A DNA stretch of 64,000 nt from Streptomyces sp. NBC_01465 (GTDB taxonomy: Bacteria > Actinomycetota > Actinomycetes > Streptomycetales > Streptomycetaceae): contig NZ_CP109467.1 of NCBI RefSeq assembly GCF_036227325.1, positions 2,604,001 to 2,668,000 of the forward strand, given 5' to 3'. Below are positions 23,800 to 35,993 of the stretch, piece after piece (within the stretch, counting starts at the first letter, position 1; every line of letters begins with the position of its first letter). The notes below the pieces were generated by a model. That model did no database searches. It was not told the DNA's origin and was given only the letters and a program-made list of their open reading frames with translations. Both the position numbers and the translations under genes were made by a program.

Positions 23800-26364
23800 C
23801 TACGCGGCCGCGTCGGCCGCCTGCGCCTTCAGGGCCCGCTCGACGCCCGAGCGCGACTCCGAGATCAGGCGGCGCAGCGCGGCGTTCGGCTCCGCCGAAG
23901 CCAGCCAGGCGTCCGTCGCGTCCAGCGTCGCCTGCGAGACCTGCAGCGACGGGTAGAGCCCGATGGCCACCTGCTGCGCCATCTCGTGGCTGCGCGAGTC
24001 CCACACACCCTTGACCGCGGCGAAGTACTTCTCCGTGTACGGGGCGAGCAGCTCGCGCTGGTCGGTCTGTACGAAGCCGCCGATCACGGCCTCCTGCAGC
24101 GAGTTGGGCAGGGTGTCCGACTCCACGACCGAGGCCCAGGCCTCCGCCTTCGCCGCCTCGACGGGCCGCGCGGCACGCGCGGAGGCGGCGTGGCGCTCGC
24201 CCGCGGACGTCTTGTCCAGTGCGAGCTCGGCCTCGATCTCCTCCACGTCGAACCGGCCTACGGCGGCGAGCCGCTGCACGAACGCCCAGCGGAGCTCGGT
24301 GTCGACGGCGAGACCCTCGATGGAGTCCGTGCCCTCCAACAGGCCCTGCAGCAGGTCCAGTTGGATGGGCGTGCGGGCCGTGGCCGCGAAGGCCCTGGCC
24401 CAGGCCAGCTGGTGGTCACTGGCCGGCTCGGCGCCCCGCAGGTGCGCCAGCGTGGCGTCCGTCCACTGCGTCAGACCGGCCTCGCGCCACTCCGGGGCGG
24501 CGTACAGGTCGAGGGCCAGCTTCACCTGGCGGTGCAGCGACTGCACCACACCGATGTCCGTCTCCTTGCCGATGCCCGAGAGCACCAGGGCCAGGTAGTC
24601 ACGGGTGGCGAGCTCGCCGTCGCGCGTCATGTCCCAGGCGGACGCCCAGCTCAGTGCGCGCGGCAGCGACTCCGTGAAGTCGCCGAGGTGCGCGGTGACG
24701 ACCCGCAGGGACTCCTCGTCGAGGCGGACCTTGGCGTAGCTGAGGTCGTCGTCGTTGAGCAGGACGACGTCGGGGCGGACCGTCCCGGCGGGGAAGGGCA
24801 CCTCGGTGCGCTCGCCGTCGACGTCCAGCTCGATGCGGCTGGTCCGGACGAGCTTGCCGTCCTGGAGGTCGTAGCAGCCGATGGCGATGCGGTGCGGGCG
24901 CAGCGTGGGCTCGCCCTTCGCTCCGGCGGGCAGCGCGGGCGCCTCCTGCTTGACGAAGAAGGAGGTGACGACGCCGTCCGCGTCGACCTCGATCTCGGGC
25001 CGCAGGATGTTGATGCCCGCGGTCTCGAGCCATGCCTTCGACCAGGTCTTCAGGTCACGGCCGGAGGTCTTCTCCAGGGCGCCGAGCAGATCGCTGAGCC
25101 GTGTGTTCCCGAAGGCGTGGGCCTTGAAGTAGGCCTGGACGCCCGCGAAGAACTCGTCCATTCCGACGTACGCGACGAGCTGCTTGAGGACGCTCGCGCC
25201 CTTGGCGTAGGTGATGCCGTCGAAGTTGACGAGGACGTCGTCCAGGTCACGGATGTCGGCCATGATCGGGTGCGTGGACGGCAGCTGGTCCTGCCGGTAG
25301 GCCCAGGTCTTCATGGAGTTGGCGAACGTCGTCCACGAGTGCGGCCACTTGGAGCCCTCGGCGTACGCCTGGCAGGCGATGGAGGTGTACGTGGCGAACG
25401 ACTCGTTCAGCCACAGGTCGTTCCACCACTCCATGGTGACGAGGTCGCCGAACCACATGTGCGCGAGCTCGTGCAGGATCGTCTCGGCCCGCGTCTCGTA
25501 CGCCGCGTCCGTCACCTTCGAGCGGAAGACGTACTGGTCGCGGATGGTCACCGCGCCCGCGTTCTCCATGGCGCCGGCGTTGAACTCCGGCACGAAGAGC
25601 TGGTCGTACTTGGCGAAGGGGTAGGCGTAGTCGAACTTCTCCTGGAACCAGTCGAAGCCCTGCCGGGTGACGTCGAAGATCGCGTCCGAGTCGAGGAACT
25701 CGGCCAGCGAGGGACGGCAGTAGATGCCGAGGGGAACGGACTGGCCGTCCTTCTCGTAGCTGCTGTGCACCGAGTGGTACGGGCCGACGATCAGGGCCGT
25801 GATGTACGAGGAGATCCGCGGCGTCGGCTCGAAGGCCCACACGTGGTCCTTGGGCTCGGGCGTCGGCGAGTTGGAGATCACGGTCCAGCCCTCGGGGGCC
25901 TTGACCGTGAACTGGAAGGTCGCCTTCAGGTCCGGCTGCTCGAAGGAGGCGAAGACGCGGCGCGCGTCCGGGACCTCGAACTGCGTGTAGAGGTAGGCCT
26001 GTTCGTCGACGGGGTCGACGAAGCGGTGCAGACCCTCGCCCGTGTTGGTGTACGCGCAGTCCGCGACGACCCGGAGCTCGTTGGGACCGGAGATCAGTCC
26101 GGCCAGCGCGATGCGCGAGTCCTGGAAGACGGCCGCGGCGTCCAGCGCGTCACCGTTCAGCACGACCTCGTGCACGGTGGGCGCGACGAGGTCGATGAAG
26201 GTCTCGGCCCCGGCCTCCGCGCTCTGGAAGCGCACGGTGGTCACGGACCGGTAGGTGCCGCCCTCCTGTGCGCCGCTCAGATCGAGGTCGATCTCGTACG
26301 AGTCGACGGTGAGCAGGCGCGCCCGCTGCTGCGCCTCGTCGCGGGTCAGATTCGTGCCAGGCAC
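23800..26364 (-). CDS. pepN: Aminopeptidase N, M1 family, copy 2
   Basis: An 854-residue zinc aminopeptidase, paralogous to the gene at 10718. It has GAMENAG for substrate N-terminus recognition, and zinc ligands His298, His302 and Glu321 (HELAHMWFGD, then LNESFAT). The C-terminal helical domain is complete. I choose the GTG at 26362-26364, giving MPGTNLTRDEAQQRA. It has GGAGAT eight bases upstream and aligns with copy 1, while the ATG at 26400 adds 12 unmatched residues and lacks a ribosome site. Two cytoplasmic PepN enzymes within 13 kb may differ in specificity. Confidence 0.95.
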   Translation of the reverse strand: MPGTNLTRDEAQQRARLLTVDSYEIDLDLSGAQEGGTYRSVTTVRFQSAEAGAETFIDLVAPTVHEVVLNGDALDAAAVFQDSRIALAGLISGPNELRVVADCAYTNTGEGLHRFVDPVDEQAYLYTQFEVPDARRVFASFEQPDLKATFQFTVKAPEGWTVISNSPTPEPKDHVWAFEPTPRISSYITALIVGPYHSVHSSYEKDGQSVPLGIYCRPSLAEFLDSDAIFDVTRQGFDWFQEKFDYAYPFAKYDQLFVPEFNAGAMENAGAVTIRDQYVFRSKVTDAAYETRAETILHELAHMWFGDLVTMEWWNDLWLNESFATYTSIACQAYAEGSKWPHSWTTFANSMKTWAYRQDQLPSTHPIMADIRDLDDVLVNFDGITYAKGASVLKQLVAYVGMDEFFAGVQAYFKAHAFGNTRLSDLLGALEKTSGRDLKTWSKAWLETAGINILRPEIEVDADGVVTSFFVKQEAPALPAGAKGEPTLRPHRIAIGCYDLQDGKLVRTSRIELDVDGERTEVPFPAGTVRPDVVLLNDDDLSYAKVRLDEESLRVVTAHLGDFTESLPRALSWASAWDMTRDGELATRDYLALVLSGIGKETDIGVVQSLHRQVKLALDLYAAPEWREAGLTQWTDATLAHLRGAEPASDHQLAWARAFAATARTPIQLDLLQGLLEGTDSIEGLAVDTELRWAFVQRLAAVGRFDVEEIEAELALDKTSAGERHAASARAARPVEAAKAEAWASVVESDTLPNSLQEAVIGGFVQTDQRELLAPYTEKYFAAVKGVWDSRSHEMAQQVAIGLYPSLQVSQATLDATDAWLASAEPNAALRRLISESRSGVERALKAQAADAAA

Positions 26365-26450
26365 CTGGGCATCTCCTCGGTATGTGACGTTTCCGGCCAT
26401 CCTTCCACGCCCCGAGGGTGTGGGTCAGTCCGTATTTCCCAGGGCTGAAC

Positions 26451-27071: not shown

Positions 27072-27623
27072 ATGAACTACCTGCGCGGCTTTCTCCCGTG
27101 GATCGCGTTCGCCGTCGTTTCCTCCGCGGGCTGGCAGTGGGGAGCAGTGACGGGTCTGGCGCTGGGCGCCTGGCTGCTGGTCAAGGACCGCCAGGCCGGC
27201 GAGGCCGCCGGAGCGAAGATCCTGGAGATCAGCACCGTCGCCTACTTCGCGGTCCTCACCGTCTTCGCCTTCGCCCGCCCCGACAGCGGTCTGCAGGACT
27301 ACAGCGGCACGCTCTCCTTCGGCTGGCTGGCCGTGACCGCCTGGGCCACGCTGGCCGTGGGCCGCCCCTTCACCACCGGCATAGCCCGCAAGCAGGCGCC
27401 GGAGGCGGTCTGGCACACGCCGCTCTTCCGCCGCATCAATGTGGTGATCACCGCCTTCTGGGCGGCCTCCTTCACCGTGACCGCCGCCGTACTGGTCGCC
27501 GTGTACGCCAATGACCTCGGCAGCGGAGTCTCCACCGCCGTCCAGGTCGCCGGCTTCGCGGTCGCCGCGGTCTTCACCGCCCGCTACCCGGAGCGCGCCC
27601 GGGCCCGCGTCACCCAGGCCTGA
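27072..27623 (+). CDS. Small polytopic membrane protein, probable PadR target
   Basis: A 183-residue inner-membrane protein with five or six hydrophobic segments (for example WIAFAVVSSAGWQWGAVTGL and VNVVITAFWAASFTVTAAV-like regions). I do not recognise the family with certainty; it is not an MFS or ABC protein. The ATG at 27072 follows AGGAGCTCCTC. It sits divergently next to the PadR gene with tandem operators between them, so it may be a PadR-controlled membrane stress protein. No substrate can be inferred. Confidence 0.75.
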   Translation: MNYLRGFLPWIAFAVVSSAGWQWGAVTGLALGAWLLVKDRQAGEAAGAKILEISTVAYFAVLTVFAFARPDSGLQDYSGTLSFGWLAVTAWATLAVGRPFTTGIARKQAPEAVWHTPLFRRINVVITAFWAASFTVTAAVLVAVYANDLGSGVSTAVQVAGFAVAAVFTARYPERARARVTQA

Positions 27624-27702
27624 GCACCAGTCCGGAGAGTCCGCCCAGCGCAACGTCCGAATACCGCCGGAAACGGCCCGCGGCCGGAAGGAGTCTGGAG
27701 TC

Positions 27703-28203
27703 ATGACGAACTACACCGCACTCGCGATCCCCCCGGCAGCCCTCAAGGAGCTCCGCTCCACCGACGACGCGGGCCGCGCCTGCGCCCCGTACACCGCCAC
27801 CGAAGCCGGCTCCCCGCTCCGCTGCTGCCTGCGCCCCGTCCACGAGGGCGAGGAGATCGCCCTCGTCTCGTACGCACCGCTGCGCCGCTGGGCAGCAGAG
27901 ACCTGGGCCAAGCCGGGCGCGTACGACGAGCAGGGCCCGGTCTTCATCCACGCCGAGGAGTGCGAGGGCCCGGCCGAGGCCCCCGAGGAGTACCCCTTCA
28001 GCCGCCCCGGCGCCCTGCGCACGCTCCGCCGCTACAACGCCGAGGGCCACATAGTCGGCGGCCGCCTCCTGGAGATACCGGAGACAGCCGCCGAGGGGTT
28101 CGACACGGCCCTCGCGGAAGCGTTCGCCGAGCCGGAGGTCGCGCTGGTGCACATCAGGGCCGTGGAGTACGGCTGCTTCCAGTTCGAGGTCCGCAGGCCG
28201 TAA
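27703..28203 (+). CDS. DUF1203 domain protein
   Basis: A 166-residue cytoplasmic protein matching the DUF1203 family: CRPCLRPV-type segment (LRCCLRPVHEGEEIALVSYA), GPVFIHAEECEG and ALVHIRAVEYGCFQFEVRRP at the end. The function is unknown. The ATG at 27703 follows GGAAGGAGTCTGGAG. The last 50 bases overlap the 3' end of the convergent M14 peptidase gene, but codon use supports both frames. It is not obviously part of the peptide cassette. Confidence 0.85.
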   Translation: MTNYTALAIPPAALKELRSTDDAGRACAPYTATEAGSPLRCCLRPVHEGEEIALVSYAPLRRWAAETWAKPGAYDEQGPVFIHAEECEGPAEAPEEYPFSRPGALRTLRRYNAEGHIVGGRLLEIPETAAEGFDTALAEAFAEPEVALVHIRAVEYGCFQFEVRRP

Positions 28204-29491
28204 CGGGGGCCTGGTCGCCGTCGTCGACGAGCAGCTTCCCGGCCAGGTCCAGCATGGTTCGCACATGGAGCTCCGTCTGCGCGGCGACCGGGACCCAGCG
28301 GGGGTCGTACGTCTCCTCGAGCTCCCGGCACCATGCGCGCACCAGGCCGGTGAGTGCGTCGGCGGTGGCGGGTTCGGTGACTTCCAGAGCCCTGCGCATC
28401 ATGGCTGCCGCGCGCAGAGGGATACGGCGGGCTGCGAGAGCAAGTGAAGCGAAATGGCCCTCGACGGTGCGCAACCCGCCCTGTGCGTACGGATCCTCCG
28501 CGTACGAATCCCAGGTGCCGACGATCGAGGGAGCGACGTCGATGAGCTCCTGAGCCGCGGTACGGATCGGAATCAGCCCCTCGGGCACAGCGGTGTCACC
28601 CGCGCCGAGTGCGTCCGTCAACTGCCCTGTCCTGCGCAGCAACAGCTCACGCGCCCTTGCCAGCTCTTTGCCCGGGTCGGCTGCGGGACGCCCGTCACTC
28701 ACCGAGGTCAGGCCCCAGGAGGGTGTCTCGACGATGGCGGTGACCGTGCCGTGCCTCAGTGGGTACGTCCAGGTCATCTCGGAGACGAACCCGCTGGCAT
28801 CGCGTTCACCACGTGTGCGCGCACCGGGCAGCACCAGCACACCCGGCCCGTCCTCGTCCCAGTCGACGGAGTCGTAGGGCCGGTGCTCCAGCGGGACGCC
28901 CAAGCGCCCCGCCGTCTCCCTGAAGTCATGAGCAGCACCGGGCACCGGCCGCGTCAACTGCAGGAAAGCGCCGCCGAACTCGATGCCGTGCAACGAGAAC
29001 TGCACCGTCGGCCGCAGTTCGTCGAGGAGCCGTACGAGCGCCGACGACTCGGGGAGCGGGTCCCGGCCGTCGCCCTGCGCGGGCAACGACTCCGGCTGAC
29101 AGACGAACGCGGGCCGGTAGAAGTGCCGGTGGTAGCCCTCCAAAGAAGGATCCGCCTCCCCCGGCGCCCACCCCTGCGCCAGACGCGCGCCGTCCGGGTC
29201 GAGGCAGAGCAGCATGTGCCATGTGCAGTCGAGCAGTTCGAGAAGCTCGGGCGCGCGGGCCAACTCACCGGCGAGCCGCAGCGCGGAGGCCCCGCCCACC
29301 GGTTCGTTCGCGTGCGCGCCGGACACGGTGAGCACATGGCGCTCCCCCCGCCCGGCCGACAGCAGCCAGAGCGGAGACCCCGCCCTGCTCTCGCCCACGG
29401 TGCGCAGTCCCAGGGTTTCCGGGTGCGCGGCGACCAGCGCGCGGGCCTGCAGTTCCAGCTCGTCGATCGTCGGATACCACGGTGTCCGCAC
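28154..29491 (-). CDS. M14-family zinc metallocarboxypeptidase of the peptide cassette
   Basis: A 445-residue metallopeptidase without a signal peptide, so it is cytoplasmic. The M14 zinc site is present as His60-x2-Glu63 (SGAHANEP) and a downstream His in FSLHGIEFGG; the general base Glu is likely in IVETPSWG. These enzymes trim C-terminal residues or hydrolyse amide side products. The GTG start at 29489-29491 follows GGAGG and lies 13 bases after the stop of the 24-codon peptide gene, so the two are translationally linked. This strongly suggests the peptide, or its modified form, is the substrate. Confidence 0.88.
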   Translation of the reverse strand: MRTPWYPTIDELELQARALVAAHPETLGLRTVGESRAGSPLWLLSAGRGERHVLTVSGAHANEPVGGASALRLAGELARAPELLELLDCTWHMLLCLDPDGARLAQGWAPGEADPSLEGYHRHFYRPAFVCQPESLPAQGDGRDPLPESSALVRLLDELRPTVQFSLHGIEFGGAFLQLTRPVPGAAHDFRETAGRLGVPLEHRPYDSVDWDEDGPGVLVLPGARTRGERDASGFVSEMTWTYPLRHGTVTAIVETPSWGLTSVSDGRPAADPGKELARARELLLRRTGQLTDALGAGDTAVPEGLIPIRTAAQELIDVAPSIVGTWDSYAEDPYAQGGLRTVEGHFASLALAARRIPLRAAAMMRRALEVTEPATADALTGLVRAWCRELEETYDPRWVPVAAQTELHVRTMLDLAGKLLVDDGDQAPVTACGPRTGSSRTPRP

Positions 29492-29504
29492 GCCGGCCCT
29501 CCAC

Positions 29505-29579
29505 TCAGCTGCCGTTGGAGTTGCTGTCCCCGGTCGTCTCTTTCTTGTCCAGCGGGCGTATCACGATCTTCGTGGCCAT
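29505..29579 (-). CDS. 24-residue peptide gene, candidate RiPP precursor
   Basis: The ORF encodes 24 residues, beginning MATKIVIRPLDKKE and ending DSNSNGS. The N-terminal part can form a beta strand, as needed for capture by RRE/PqqD-type domains. The C-terminal part is small, polar and flexible, and contains acidic and hydroxyl residues but no Cys. An ATG at 29577-29579 has CGGAG five bases upstream, and TTGACA lies about 70 bases upstream. It is followed at once by the M14 peptidase gene and faces the ThiF and M50 genes. It is too short for gene finders. No family is recognised. Confidence 0.72.
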   Translation of the reverse strand: MATKIVIRPLDKKETTGDSNSNGS

Positions 29580-29617
29580 GTTCACTCCGTTTCGTCAACT
29601 CGCCTGTCACACACGGT

Positions 29618-29654
29618 TGTTGCCAACATTCATCCGCATGAACAAGAGTGTCAA
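29618..29654. promoter_or_regulatory. Promoter with palindrome between the peptide gene and the ThiF gene
   Basis: On the minus strand a consensus TTGACA (29654-29649) is followed, 18 bases on, by AATGTT (29630-29625) as a weak -10. The palindrome TGTTGCCAACA (29618-29628) covers the -10 and likely start site, as a repressor operator would. No regulator gene is in the cassette. Confidence 0.5.
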
Positions 29655-29684
29655 GGGCACGCATCCGTGACGGGAGGTGGCTCT

Positions 29685-30824
29685 GTGGCCAAAAACGTGG
29701 GGTCCCTGCGGCGACCCCGCATCAAGCCGGAGCACCGGGCCTACCGGACCGTCGACGGCCATGTCCGCATCGGGAGCGTGATCCACGGCATCGGCTCGGA
29801 GATCCTGGACGAGCAGGGCTGGGTCTGGTCCCTGGTGCAGAACCTGGACGGATCCCGCACCCCGCAGGCAGTCGCGTCAGAGGTGCTGCGCTGTCATCCC
29901 GCACTGGAGAACGAGGACGTCCTGCAGGCCATGGCCGACCTGTGGGAAGCCGGCTTCCTGGACGACGCCGCGCCTCCCCCGCCCGACCTGTCCACGCGCG
30001 AACAGACCCGCTACAGCCGCGGCGTACCTCTGCTGCGGTGGATGGATCTCAGCCCGCGGGAGAGCCCCTGGGATGCCCAACTCGCCCTGCGTCAAGCGAA
30101 GGTCCTGCTCATCGGCACCGGCGGCACGGGCGGTTCCGCCGCCCAGGCGCTCGTCGCGTCCGGGGTGGGCCTGATGCACTGCGTGGACCCCGACACGGTC
30201 GAGCTGTCCAACCTCAATCGCCAGCTCCTCTACCGGGAGCGCCACATCGGCGAACCCAAGGTCCGGATCGCGGTGGAGGACCTACGGGCGCTCAACTCGG
30301 ACGTGGTCGTCACCGGCGAGCAGTGCACTGTGGGAAGCCCCGCCGATTTCTCCGCTCTGCTCCCCGGTTACGACGTGATGTTGCTCGCCGCCGACCGGCC
30401 GACGGACATCCGGCGCTGGGCCAACCGCGCCTGCCTGGACGCCGGAGTCCCCTGGGCCGTCGCCGGATACCGCGGCCCCCTGGTCACGGTGGGCGTCCAC
30501 GTACCCGGCCGGGGCGGCTGCTGGGAGTGCCTGCGCACCGGGGAGGTGGAGCGGCGCGATCTGCGGCTCGGGCCGGATCAGGACGAGTCCGCCGCCTCGC
30601 CCCGTATGCCTTGGAATCCTGCGAACGCCGTGACGGCCGGACTTTCGGGAAGCCTCCTCGCCCATGCCGCCGTCGCCCTGCTCACCGGCATCCCGCGCAT
30701 GGAGCCCGGGGTGCGGTACGGAATCAATCTCATGACCCCCGGCGAACCGGTCCTGGACCGTTTCCCGCGTAGGCCCGACTGCCCCGCGTGCGGCGACGAC
30801 CGGCGCGGAGGCGACCGCCCGTGA
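29685..30824 (+). CDS. ThiF/HesA/E1-like adenylating enzyme with N-terminal RRE-like domain
   Basis: A 379-residue cytoplasmic enzyme. Residues about 15-95 form a PqqD/RRE-like winged helix (IKPEHRAYRTVDGHVRIG, ending ADLWEAGFLDD). The E1 adenylation domain has nucleotide loop LLIGTGGTGGSAAQAL (142-156), VDPDTVELSNLNRQLLYRE and two CxxC pairs (GGCWECL, DCPACGD) for structural zinc. Related enzymes activate carboxyl groups as acyl-adenylates (MccB, PaaA, ThiF). There is no YcaO partner. The GTG at 29685 follows GGGAGG with seven bases. It overlaps the M50 gene by four bases (GTGA). Confidence 0.87.
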   Translation: MAKNVGSLRRPRIKPEHRAYRTVDGHVRIGSVIHGIGSEILDEQGWVWSLVQNLDGSRTPQAVASEVLRCHPALENEDVLQAMADLWEAGFLDDAAPPPPDLSTREQTRYSRGVPLLRWMDLSPRESPWDAQLALRQAKVLLIGTGGTGGSAAQALVASGVGLMHCVDPDTVELSNLNRQLLYRERHIGEPKVRIAVEDLRALNSDVVVTGEQCTVGSPADFSALLPGYDVMLLAADRPTDIRRWANRACLDAGVPWAVAGYRGPLVTVGVHVPGRGGCWECLRTGEVERRDLRLGPDQDESAASPRMPWNPANAVTAGLSGSLLAHAAVALLTGIPRMEPGVRYGINLMTPGEPVLDRFPRRPDCPACGDDRRGGDRP

Positions 30825-32023
30825 CGGTGACACCCACCCGGATCCGCCTCCACTGCCTGGCCGCACGTCGGGACGGTACGGAGTGGATCGTCGGCCGGAT
30901 GGCCACCGGCCGCTTCGTGGCGCTCCCCGACACCGGCAAACGCTGCCTGGACCTCCTCGGGGAGGGCCTCGGCGTCGCCGAGGTCGCCGACCGGATACAG
31001 CGGGAGAGCGGGGAGGACATCGACGTACCCGACTTCGTCGCAGCCCTCGTCGACCTGGGATTCGTAGCCGCTGCGGACGGCCTGCCCCTGCCGTCGGAGA
31101 AGGTGCCCGCACCCGCCCTGCCTCGGATCCGACCCCGGCACGTCCGGTGGACCCTGCATCCGGCCGTGCCTGCAGCGATCGGCCTGCTGATCGGCGCGGC
31201 GGTCGTCGCTCAGGTGCTGCACGCCCCCATGTCCTTCAACTACCGCTCGCTCCTGTGGAGTTCCCACGGAAGCCTGGTGATCGCCACCGGCGCGGCAGCG
31301 GGCTGGGCCCTGCTCCTGCTGCACGAGTGCGCACATCTGCTGACGGCGCGGGCCACAGGGGTGCCCGGCCGTATGCGCCTCGGCACCCGTCTGCAGTTCC
31401 TGGTGGTGCAGACGGACATCAGCGGCATCGAACTCGCCCCGCGGCGACACCGGTTGACGGCGTATCTGGCCGGTATCGCCACCAATCTGACCGTCGCCGC
31501 GACGGGGATCCTGCTCATTCCCCTCACCGCACCGGCCACCACGTCGCATCGGCTGCTGTCGGCGCTGACGCTGCTGGCGCTGGTGCCGCTCCCGTTCCAG
31601 CTCCTGGTCTTCATGCGTACCGATCTCTACTTCGTGGTGCAGGACCTCACGCGGTGCCGGGATCTGTACGGCGACGGGACCGCCTACGCGCGGTACACGG
31701 CCCGCCGGCTGGTACGGGCCGCCCTCCGCCGTACGGCGGCCGAGGACGACCCCAGCCGCGAACTGCCCGCCCACGAGCGGCGGGCCGTGCGCACGTACAG
31801 CATGGTGCTGGTCGTGGGCACGGCCCTGTGTCTGTTGTTCCTCGCCACGGTCACGCTCCCCGCCGACGCCACACTCCTCGCCCGCGCTGTCACCGCCCTG
31901 GGCCCGTCCCACTCCTGGCCGCGGAACCTCGACGCGGCGACGGTGGTCGTCGCACTCGGCGGGGTGCATCTGCTGTGGGTACGGACCTGGTGGCGCAACC
32001 GCCGTACCAGGAAGCAGATGTGA
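30821..32023 (+). CDS. Polytopic M50-like zinc metalloprotease with N-terminal PqqD-like domain
   Basis: A 400-residue membrane protein. The first 85 residues form a PqqD-like winged helix (FVALPDTGKRCLDLLGEG, then VPDFVAALVDLGFVAAAD). About six membrane helices follow. The zinc motif is HECAH (168-172) inside a helix, with Asp268 or Asp275 in MRTDLYFVVQD as probable third ligand. It resembles putative peptide zinc metalloproteases of RiPP loci. It may cleave a leader within the membrane or export the product. Its GTG start overlaps the ThiF stop, so the two are co-translated. It is convergent with allantoicase. Confidence 0.87.
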   Translation: MTVTPTRIRLHCLAARRDGTEWIVGRMATGRFVALPDTGKRCLDLLGEGLGVAEVADRIQRESGEDIDVPDFVAALVDLGFVAAADGLPLPSEKVPAPALPRIRPRHVRWTLHPAVPAAIGLLIGAAVVAQVLHAPMSFNYRSLLWSSHGSLVIATGAAAGWALLLLHECAHLLTARATGVPGRMRLGTRLQFLVVQTDISGIELAPRRHRLTAYLAGIATNLTVAATGILLIPLTAPATTSHRLLSALTLLALVPLPFQLLVFMRTDLYFVVQDLTRCRDLYGDGTAYARYTARRLVRAALRRTAAEDDPSRELPAHERRAVRTYSMVLVVGTALCLLFLATVTLPADATLLARAVTALGPSHSWPRNLDAATVVVALGGVHLLWVRTWWRNRRTRKQM

Positions 32024-34137: not shown

Positions 34138-35040
34138 CTACCTGCGCGCGCCGAGGGTGACTCCGCCGAGGATCAGCGCCATGCAGAGCAGCTGCAGCGG
34201 TCCCGTGGTCTCGCCCAGCAGGGGGTAGGACAGGAGCGCGACGCAGACCGGCTGGAGGTAGTAGACGACTCCGGCGCGGGCGGCGCCGATCGTCGCGATC
34301 GCTTTGTTCCAGGCGAAGAAGGCGAGGGCGGAGGAGAAGACGCCGACGTACAGGAGCGGGCCCACCGTCCCGGTGCCGACCGTGAAGCCGCCCTGGGTGG
34401 TGAGGCTGACGACGTACGCGGGGAGCAGCATCAGCGCGCCGAGGACGAACGTGGTGAACAGGAAGGCGGGGCCGGTCAGTTCGGCCGGCTTGCGGCGCAG
34501 GAGCGCGCTGTACGAGGCGAAGCAGCAGGCCGCGGCGAGCATCCAGAGGTCGCCGGTGGAGAAGTCCGGGGCGAGGGATCCCTTGCCGACCAGGAGGATC
34601 ACTCCGGCGCAGGCGATCAGCATCCCGGTGGTGCGACGGGCACCCAGGCGCTGTCCGCCCACGCGCTCGATGGCGGCCATCAGGACCGGTGACGCGGCCA
34701 TGATCATGCCCATGTTGCCGGCGGAGGTGGAGAGTCCGGCCTGGTTGACCAGCGTGTTGTAGACGGTCACGCCGAGGAGTGAGGCGAGGGCGACGAAGCC
34801 GAAGTGGCGGCGGATCAGGGCCCGTTGGCGCCAGGCGGCCCGGGCCGCGAAGGGGGCGACCGCCAGGAGGGCGACGATCCAGCGCCAGAAGGCGGCCTGC
34901 ACGGGAGGCACGGAGTCGTGGAGTGCGCGCGAGGCGACGAAGCTGCCGGACCAGACGACCGTGGCGAGGGCGGCGAGTGCCAGGCCGGCGCCTGCGGCGG
35001 TGCTTCCCGTACGGGGGCGGGAAAGGGTCAGGACAGCCAC
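34138..35040 (-). CDS. EamA-type DMT exporter 1
   Basis: A 300-residue inner-membrane protein of the drug/metabolite transporter superfamily. It has ten hydrophobic segments in two EamA repeats, the second repeat starting near DLWMLAAACCFASYSALLRRK. It probably exports a small metabolite. The ATG at 35040 follows GGAGGAACC. It is directly followed by the LysR gene (two-base gap), so the pair forms an operon. Its promoter lies within the 3' end of the second DMT gene, where the copy 2 dyad is found. Confidence 0.9.
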   Translation of the reverse strand: MAVLTLSRPRTGSTAAGAGLALAALATVVWSGSFVASRALHDSVPPVQAAFWRWIVALLAVAPFAARAAWRQRALIRRHFGFVALASLLGVTVYNTLVNQAGLSTSAGNMGMIMAASPVLMAAIERVGGQRLGARRTTGMLIACAGVILLVGKGSLAPDFSTGDLWMLAAACCFASYSALLRRKPAELTGPAFLFTTFVLGALMLLPAYVVSLTTQGGFTVGTGTVGPLLYVGVFSSALAFFAWNKAIATIGAARAGVVYYLQPVCVALLSYPLLGETTGPLQLLCMALILGGVTLGARR

Positions 35041-35069
35041 GGAAGGTTCCTCCTTGATCGGGTGTGTCC

Positions 35070-35993
35070 CTACCGTCGCAGCCCCGAAAGCATCACGTCC
35101 ATCGAAACTTTTCGCTGATTCTTTTCAGTAGAACTGAACGATGCGCGTGGCGCCAGCTGCCCCGAGAGCGTCGCCCCGAAGGCGATCGCCATCCCGGCGA
35201 GCTGCAGCGGAGTGAGCGTCTGGCCGAGCGCGGCCCACCCGATGACGGCGGCCGTCAGCGGGGAGAGCGGCCCGAGGAAGGTGACGGAGGTGGCGGTGAG
35301 CTTGCCGATCCCCCGGAACCAGAGCCAGTACGCGACCGCCGTGTTGACCAGCGCCAGATACGCGTACCCGGCGAGATTGCGCCCGTCGAGCGCGGGCGGC
35401 GCACCCTCGGCGAGGAACGCGACGGGGGCGATCAGCAGCCCGCCCGCGGTGAGCTGCCAGCCGGTGAGGGCGAGGGCTCCGACGCCCTCGGGGCGGCCCC
35501 ACCACTTGGTGAGGACGGTGCCCGCGGACATCGCGGCGGACGAGGCGAGGGCGGCCCCGACGCCGACGAGGTCGAAGGCGCCCGCCGCCTTCAGCACCAC
35601 CAGGCTCACCCCGAGCGCGGCCGCGATGCCGGTCAACAGGGTGCGGACGGTGGGGCGTTCGGAGAGGAGGAGGGCGGCGAGCGCGGCGACGAAGAGCGGC
35701 CCCACGGAACCGACGACGGCGGCCATCCCGCCGGGGAGGCGGTAGGCGGAGAGGAAGAGGAGCGGGAAGAAGGCGCCGATGTTCAGGGCTCCGAGCGCCG
35801 CCGACTTCCACCACCAGGCGCCGCGCGGAAGGACTCGCGTGACGGCGAGGAGGGCGAGCCCGGCGGGCAGGGCCCGTACGAGAGCGGTGAACAACGGGCG
35901 GTCGGGCGGCAGGAGTTGGGTCGTCACGGCATAGGTGGAGCCCCAGGAGACGGGGGCGAGGGCGGTGAGGGCGACGGTCGCTGCGCGGTTCAT
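35070..35993 (-). CDS. EamA-type DMT exporter 2
   Basis: A 307-residue protein of the same superfamily as the 34138 gene, with ten hydrophobic segments and the EamA pattern (APVSWGSTYAVTTQLLPPD at the N-terminus, NTAVAYWLWFRGIGKL in repeat 2). The C-terminal tail of about 30 residues is hydrophilic and is encoded across the copy 2 dyad, so coding and control overlap there. Shorter ends in other frames are not supported. It lies 34 bases downstream of the MFS gene and may be in its operon. Confidence 0.88.
   Translation of the reverse strand: MNRAATVALTALAPVSWGSTYAVTTQLLPPDRPLFTALVRALPAGLALLAVTRVLPRGAWWWKSAALGALNIGAFFPLLFLSAYRLPGGMAAVVGSVGPLFVAALAALLLSERPTVRTLLTGIAAALGVSLVVLKAAGAFDLVGVGAALASSAAMSAGTVLTKWWGRPEGVGALALTGWQLTAGGLLIAPVAFLAEGAPPALDGRNLAGYAYLALVNTAVAYWLWFRGIGKLTATSVTFLGPLSPLTAAVIGWAALGQTLTPLQLAGMAIAFGATLSGQLAPRASFSSTEKNQRKVSMDVMLSGLRR
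35098..35140. promoter_or_regulatory. LysR-type operator/promoter element, copy 2 (DMT exporter 1)
   Basis: TTCAGT-AGA-ACTGAA (35124-35138) repeats the allantoicase dyad, followed on the minus strand by an AGAAT spacer and CGAAA-N2-TTTCG, then GATGGAC. On the same strand it is 84-98 bases upstream of the DMT start at 35040. The two copies match at most positions over about 45 bases. Confidence 0.65.

Follow-up and report, generated by a model that had tools for sequence, protein, structure and literature searches.

The analysed stretch of 64,000 nucleotides (the window) lies in Streptomyces sp. NBC_01465 (contig NZ_CP109467.1, positions 2,604,001 to 2,668,000), a genome of 9.14 Mb in one contig. 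It harbors a cassette of four genes, for a short peptide, an M14-family peptidase, a ThiF/E1-like enzyme and a membrane protease of family M50, examined here as a candidate pathway to a ribosomally synthesised and post-translationally modified peptide (RiPP). RiPP recognition elements (RRE) or RRE-like domains are assigned to two of the proteins. The features are:

28154..29491, minus strand: M14-family zinc peptidase gene, 445 amino acids, GTG start at 29491 (Pfam, alignment)
29505..29579, minus strand: putative precursor peptide gene, 24 amino acids, MATKIVIRPLDKKETTGDSNSNGS (open reading frame, conserved homologues)
29580..29684, unstranded: divergent promoter region between peptide and ThiF starts
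29620..29653, plus strand: two-box element TTGCCA-N22-GTGTCA, boxes at 29620-29625 and 29648-29653 (near match to the pattern)
29685..30824, plus strand: ThiF/E1-like adenylyltransferase gene, 379 amino acids, N-terminal RRE, two CxxC pairs
30821..32023, plus strand: M50 site-2-type membrane protease gene, 400 amino acids, N-terminal PqqD-like domain
30842..31075, plus strand: RRE-like domain at the N-terminus of the M50 protease, roughly residues 8-85 (structure model)

The initial annotation had described two divergent pairs facing each other across 105 bases, and the gap from 29580 to 29684 has exactly this length. The pairing of a 24-codon peptide with M14 was confirmed, both genes lying on the minus strand with 13 nt between the peptide stop and the GTG start of M14. 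The M50 start overlaps the ThiF stop as GTGA, and the ThiF start is backed by a colinear protein from locus L050. The peptide comprises the leader motif IVIRPLDKKETT and a putative core, GDSNSNGS.

Pfam scans covered 8 flanking and cassette proteins and then 7 more proteins of the 64-kb window. Scores above the cut-off were obtained for M14 (41.6 bits) and ThiF (136.1 bits), while M50 (19.7 bits, cut-off 27.2), PqqD (15.5, cut-off 23.4) and PaaA-like_N (14.2, cut-off 27) stayed below. The absence of YcaO, radical SAM and LanM genes, claimed for the locus, holds for these 15 proteins rather than for the whole 64 kb. No transporter gene is present in the four-gene cassette, as had been noted, though EamA and MFS transporter genes occur at 34.1-37.3 kb of the window.

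The nearest PDB structures to the window ThiF were MccB (E 2.5e-25) and PaaA (5ff5, E 2.4e-24). An RRE-like domain had been predicted on this protein. PaaA-like_N was matched in 14 of 20 aligned family members at E <= 0.1 (best 3.5e-6), which places an RRE domain in a pathway protein at family level, although the window ThiF itself falls below the Pfam cut-off. The predicted combination of M50 and PqqD-like domain fared similarly: of the 19 aligned family members, 18 matched M50 and 8 matched PqqD at the same loose threshold, and the window protein scored below both cut-offs. The ten best Foldseek hits of the modelled domain of the M50 protein (E 0.13-0.61) were not significant, with no match at E <= 0.001. 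These hits are presumably all RiPP proteins bearing RREs, and solely their consistency was used. Compared with the daptide HExxH protease model NF041824, the M50 protein gave no NCBIfam hit at E <= 1. Catalytic-type residues were invariant in all three alignments, which held 18 rows for M14 (H60, E63, H168, E255), 19 for M50 (HExxH at residues 168-172, D268) and 20 for ThiF. Some gene starts in these alignments derive from a crude gene finder, which missed the window's own M14.

A first scan detected a ThiF relative at ten loci. At seven of them, all from Streptomyces, the peptide, M14, ThiF and M50 genes are arranged as in the window. A contig of a metagenome-assembled genome (L009) encodes peptide, M14 and ThiF and then ends, and another locus (L011) has ThiF alone. 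In Saccharothrix (L010), ThiF and a possible divergent peptide were found, with no M14 or M50 match. This possible precursor (5899-5970 of L010, plus strand) reads MIEFHEVDDEEMTFSGTDSEA, and large genes grouping with BTAD regulators lie on both sides of its ThiF. In the genus, a close ThiF (E <= 1e-50) was detected in 37 of 392 sampled genomes, the window's genome included. These 37 loci comprise 32 with an M50 match and 26 with M14, present in L067 as its start alone at the contig end. Both occur in 21 loci, so the beforehand named expectation that the four genes stay together in other genomes was borne out. Genus and class searches scored five candidates per genome and the M14 search four, making all positives lower bounds. 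Some strains are shared by both sets (L006/L057, L008/L056) or near-identical (L002/L055). Flanking genes vary between strain groups, which fits a unit moving or being lost as a whole. A close ThiF without M14 was seen in 2 of 28 assessable genomes; the rough test of this asymmetry (p 0.009) counts 26 genomes twice and was not relied on. One clade (L062, L065, L066, L067) has peptide, M14 and ThiF with no M50 beside ThiF. No M50 was found anywhere in its genomes (G113, G055, G192, G058), one being only 82% complete.

A short peptide with the leader IxIRxLDKKETT or a variant is encoded in 35 of the 37 genus loci. The exceptions are L068, where no peptide was found, and L082, which ends at a contig end. 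Of the 26 loci that carry M14 and ThiF, 25 encode a peptide that matches the strict motif and has a start codon, as expected from the second test named beforehand, the conservation of the peptide frame across genomes. On this conservation, the window peptide is judged to be no chance open reading frame. Strict peptides are also present in two ThiF loci without M14 (L063, L064), a near-match in L066 and variants in seven more loci. Alignment of the short peptides separated a conserved leader from a variable core, as had been anticipated. The 26 distinct strict peptides all have the two Ile of IxI, and Pro (23/26), Asp (25/26) and Glu (25/26) are nearly invariant; R, L, K, T and T of the leader are fixed by the search pattern itself. 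The tails have 6-9 residues and form 17 different cores, mostly rich in Gly, Ser and Asn. Four of the 17 cores end differently (SGE, SSN, NGG, GGG). Acid-free cores exist in the strict set (GPSNSQGA, QKCGGA) and in the class sample (GLSNSGGT). Tandem precursors in two to three copies were found in 6 of the 37 loci (L049, L069-L072, L076). Three such copies lie in L076, and GPSNSQGA, without the usual Asp, is the core of one of them.

The gene of the short precursor, whose leader is conserved and whose core varies, adjoins that of a tailoring enzyme. Because of the conserved leader, the variable tail and the paralogous precursors, the cassette very probably encodes a RiPP pathway. The adenylation domain of ThiF also matches PADLOC E1-E2 models (best 60.3 bits), which would speak for an E1-based anti-phage or protein-conjugation system. 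This explanation is highly improbable: the adenylation domain alone matches, no E2-type partner or JAMM domain was matched among the three cassette proteins, and RRE-type domains with tandem variable precursors fit RiPPs. Moreover, 24 residues are too short for a beta-grasp modifier. A ubiquitin-like reading, with such a modifier and its E1, was rejected for the same reason; its logic of trimming before activation survives in an alternative role for M14 considered below.

Outside the clade, the leader has diverged and is still recognisable (IEIRLLDKIETIQNKQIDS), also at class-wide loci (ITIRLLDKIETTNASNSVGN, EITIRRLDKIETTAFSQGNST, KIRKLEKIETTINRGGQSG). Variant peptides of distant loci were chosen by eye from lists of open reading frames and are softer evidence than the strict set. 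In a class-wide sample, an RRE-ThiF (E <= 1e-65) was detected in 16 of 394 genomes, 3 of them from the window's genus. A motif peptide accompanies ThiF at 14 of 23 loci (L116-L138), three of these 14 belonging to the genus and one having been seen before. Twenty wider class loci (L139-L158) include M50 in 11 cases and M14 in two, both from the genus (L139, L140). Judged by these occurrences, peptide and ThiF are the constant part of the system, M50 is the usual partner and M14 an accessory. In L142, L145 and L149, the precursor and M50 genes are separated by a DUF6879-type gene, which in L154 and L063 lies beside ThiF or M50; the family was confirmed by Pfam in L145 and L063 and assigned by eye in L142, L149 and L154.

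The intergenic region shared by the divergent pairs contains a conserved element. Among 31 divergent intergenic regions, 23 contain the pattern TTG[T/C]CA and [G/T]TGTCA, boxes 28 nt apart, and the window has a near match; of 9300 simple shuffles, one contained it. The pattern was picked after viewing the alignment, and the 31 regions are related by descent. Such an element in a shared promoter, together with very short precursors, a membrane protease and a highly conserved leader, would suit a signalling peptide, a pheromone rather than an antibiotic, matured by M50 and M14 and altered at its C-terminus by ThiF. This is improbable, since no regulator or receptor gene, compared as crude gene families, is conserved beside the cassette across site groups. 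Some distant clusters include an exporter along with a BTAD regulator, in the manner of biosynthetic clusters. By Pfam, the distant cluster L074 encodes a BTAD regulator, an ABC exporter, a redoxin and an S26 signal peptidase. A MauE protein is encoded in L064, and relatives group by sequence with L074 and L064.

Several known systems resemble the cassette in part. RiPPs with a membrane M50 protease beside the precursor include the epipeptides (YydH) and the daptides. The cassette has neither radical SAM nor daptide enzymes, and its M50 bears an RRE-like domain. Pantocin A (PaaP/PaaA) shares the N-terminal RRE fused to ThiF. It differs by its Glu-Glu core, which the cassette peptide lacks, and M50 and M14 are present here instead. 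A PaaB-like oxygenase was absent among the Pfam-scanned neighbours. Microcin C (MccA/MccB; immunity by MccF, MccG, MccH) shares the short precursor and an E1-like enzyme related to MccB. In contrast to the 7 residues of MccA, the cassette peptide has 24. The C-terminal Asn of MccA, the nucleotide acceptor, has no counterpart in the window peptide, which ends in NGS; Asn-ending cores occur in 1 of the 17 strict cores (L063) and in some non-genus relatives (SNSVGN). The proposed immunity enzyme here is an M14 metallopeptidase, M50 is added and the four-gene cassette has no exporter. In excerpts of PMC9239234, MccF is described as a microcin C immunity peptidase. Most MccG homologues are standalone, and five of seven tested standalone homologues gave resistance (PMC9239234, as excerpted). 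A hydrolase immunity with standalone homologues is the likeness proposed here for M14. Enterofaecin (EnfA/EnfB) and GRC (GrcA/GrcB) share a short precursor and an RRE-bearing ThiF-like enzyme acting near the C-terminus, as far as sections of PMC12250964 describe them. By the same sections, enterofaecin has a WWIVI-like core, which is absent among the cassette cores, and GRC a thiolactone pair Glu...Cys, while the window peptide contains no Cys (PMC12250964). Differing from GRC, no radical SAM protein was found among the Pfam-scanned neighbours. Enterofaecin and GRC hosts are enterococci and streptococci, whereas the host here is a Streptomyces.

M14 is retained in genomes without the remaining pathway. 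A best M14 match below 1e-150 was obtained in 38 genomes, 24 with a close ThiF and 14 without. Score tiers form no clean divide, as the cassette M14 of genome G036 falls in the weaker tier, which was examined in six loci (L109-L114). This tier includes a separate chromosomal M14 type of Streptomyces, seen in the six loci as one or two homologues about 43-46% identical to the cassette M14. It forms a tail-to-tail pair with about 550-750 bp between the genes in three of the six (L109, L111, L113). In the 14 solo genomes, nothing ThiF- or M50-like lies beside M14. No RRE-ThiF was found in them among 85-105 candidates scored per genome, not all candidates in some larger genomes; the ThiF-domain matches that did appear began no earlier than model position 91. 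M50 was not found anywhere in 13 of the 14. Two of the 14 solo loci encode a strict peptide, whereas 25 of the 26 loci having both ThiF and M14 do so (Fisher p 2e-7). Remnants are point-mutated in L095 and L101, reduced to the ends in L097 and L098, startless in L102 and out of frame in L104; no peptide was found in L096, L100, L103 and L105-L107. M14 frames are intact in 14 of 14 solo loci (406-436 codons, aligned start to first stop), and the M14 match of G041 carries one TGA, at the match end. Pairwise ratios of nonsynonymous to synonymous substitution (dN/dS) of M14 are 0.17-0.44 within three solo groups. Among the 15 cassette pairs listed, 14 lie at 0.33-0.45 and one at 0.71. Values between the two deep M14 types (0.60-0.96) had high dS and were not used.

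In a quick tree of 55 M14 rows, in which four long branches were flagged, the solo label changes 9 times, 7 of them forced by strong branches, and solo enzymes nest among cassette M14s. Flanking genes of 13 of the 14 solo loci match a cassette-bearing locus (60% identity and coverage). Both flanks are common to a cassette locus, by reading, in eight (L095, L097, L099, L102, L104, L105, L106, L108); L101 shares one distant flank gene and L096 none. Most likely, as these patterns suggest, ThiF and M50 disappeared from their sites on several occasions, after which the peptide degenerated and M14 was retained.

Retention of M14 without ThiF in 14 genomes favours a protective function over one in biosynthesis only. 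A pathway-only enzyme should decay with its pathway, and an immunity enzyme need not; for this reason, immunity is preferred for M14. It stands alone in genomes without biosynthetic genes, a match to immunity hydrolases in function, not in homology. By analogy with MccF and MccG, the odds that M14 is a self-immunity hydrolase are put at about even. Alternatively, within the same RiPP pathway, M14 might be a maturation carboxypeptidase which removes the last residue so that Gly becomes the C-terminus, either ahead of ThiF or once ThiF has acted. This would be a miniature of the ubiquitin-like sequence 'trim, then activate with E1', and solo M14s would be leftovers with other work. Such a role is rather unlikely: M14 is intact in the 14 genomes without ThiF, while the peptide is decayed or was not found in 12, many relatives lack M14 despite a similar precursor leader, and the four deviating core ends do not fit.

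Several observations weigh against the immunity role and the pathway built on it. M14 relatives (E <= 1e-20) occur in 222 of 392 genus genomes, and a solo M14 might serve another job. No M14 was found at any of the 18 non-genus loci with ThiF and peptide. The solo genome G076 has an M50 elsewhere, and the solo loci L099 and L108 keep a strict-motif peptide. The Fisher p-values treat related genomes as independent. Between two window-type solo groups, dN/dS of M14 reaches 0.41-0.56, and all these M14 values include the time before the losses. Product and activity are predictions from the gene content.

From the sequenced parts, we infer the following pathway. The RRE of ThiF would bind the leader I-x-[IV]-R-x-L-[DE]-K-x-E-T-T. 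ThiF would then adenylate one of the peptide's carboxyl groups, most likely that at the C-terminus, because no acidic residue of the tail occurs in every member. Activation at the Asp or Glu within the leader motif is conceivable, too. The core Asp was rejected as a general site, some cores having no acid at all. Cyclisation, amidation or conjugation may follow the activation. The membrane protease M50, with its own RRE-like domain, would remove the leader at the membrane. M14 has no evident signal peptide, judged by eye, and appears cytosolic. Encoded right behind the precursor, it might hydrolyse the finished or re-imported product and so protect the producer. This scheme, in which ThiF activates the peptide, M50 frees it of its leader and M14 confers immunity, is regarded as evenly poised between right and wrong.

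The combination had been thought to match no known RiPP class. No description of the cassette or of a matching class was found in the open-licence literature, which bounds the term undescribed, and the precursor peptide strings had no match there. A 2025 review of ThiF-type RiPPs treats microcin C, pantocin A, GRC and enterofaecin in sections of their own, and a word search found none of the terms M50, M14, carboxypeptidase, PqqD and Streptomyces in its main text (PMC12250964). Of the literature combining RiPPs, M50 and ThiF, PMC7157772 concerns, by its excerpt, microcin C, and the others seem unrelated. ThiF RiPPs are thus a known kind, while the precursor family, the RRE-bearing M50 partner and M14 appear new. 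Somewhat short of an even chance is given to a new class of ThiF-made RiPPs across Actinobacteria, with leader [IV]x[IV]RxL[DE]KxETT and usually an RRE-M50, in which M14 is a new self-immunity enzyme kept in Streptomyces as a resistance gene after loss of production. ThiF-type RiPPs are few. If true, the cassette adds an actinobacterial kind, simple enough with one peptide and one ThiF for reconstitution in vitro. Repeated loss of ThiF and M50 with M14 kept would be a natural experiment pointing to a self-protection enzyme, hence to a bioactive product. The pattern of M14 and ThiF would also allow sensitive, immune and producing strains to be predicted.

Around the cassette, no tRNA genes were found in the window and no Rfam matches at gathering scores over 26.0-34.5 kb. 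The 3' end of the M14 gene lies 50 bases inside a convergent DUF1203 gene (27511-28203). Two genes of EamA, the exporter family expected in a pantocin A cluster, are located at 34138-35993, past an allantoicase gene and a LysR gene. They were taken as part of the chromosomal site because members of these EamA families are neighbours of solo M14 genes in relatives, too. An M1-family aminopeptidase gene (23800-26400, minus strand) belongs to a family also found near the cassette or a solo M14 in window-type relatives; it is likewise taken to be part of the chromosomal site and not of the cassette.

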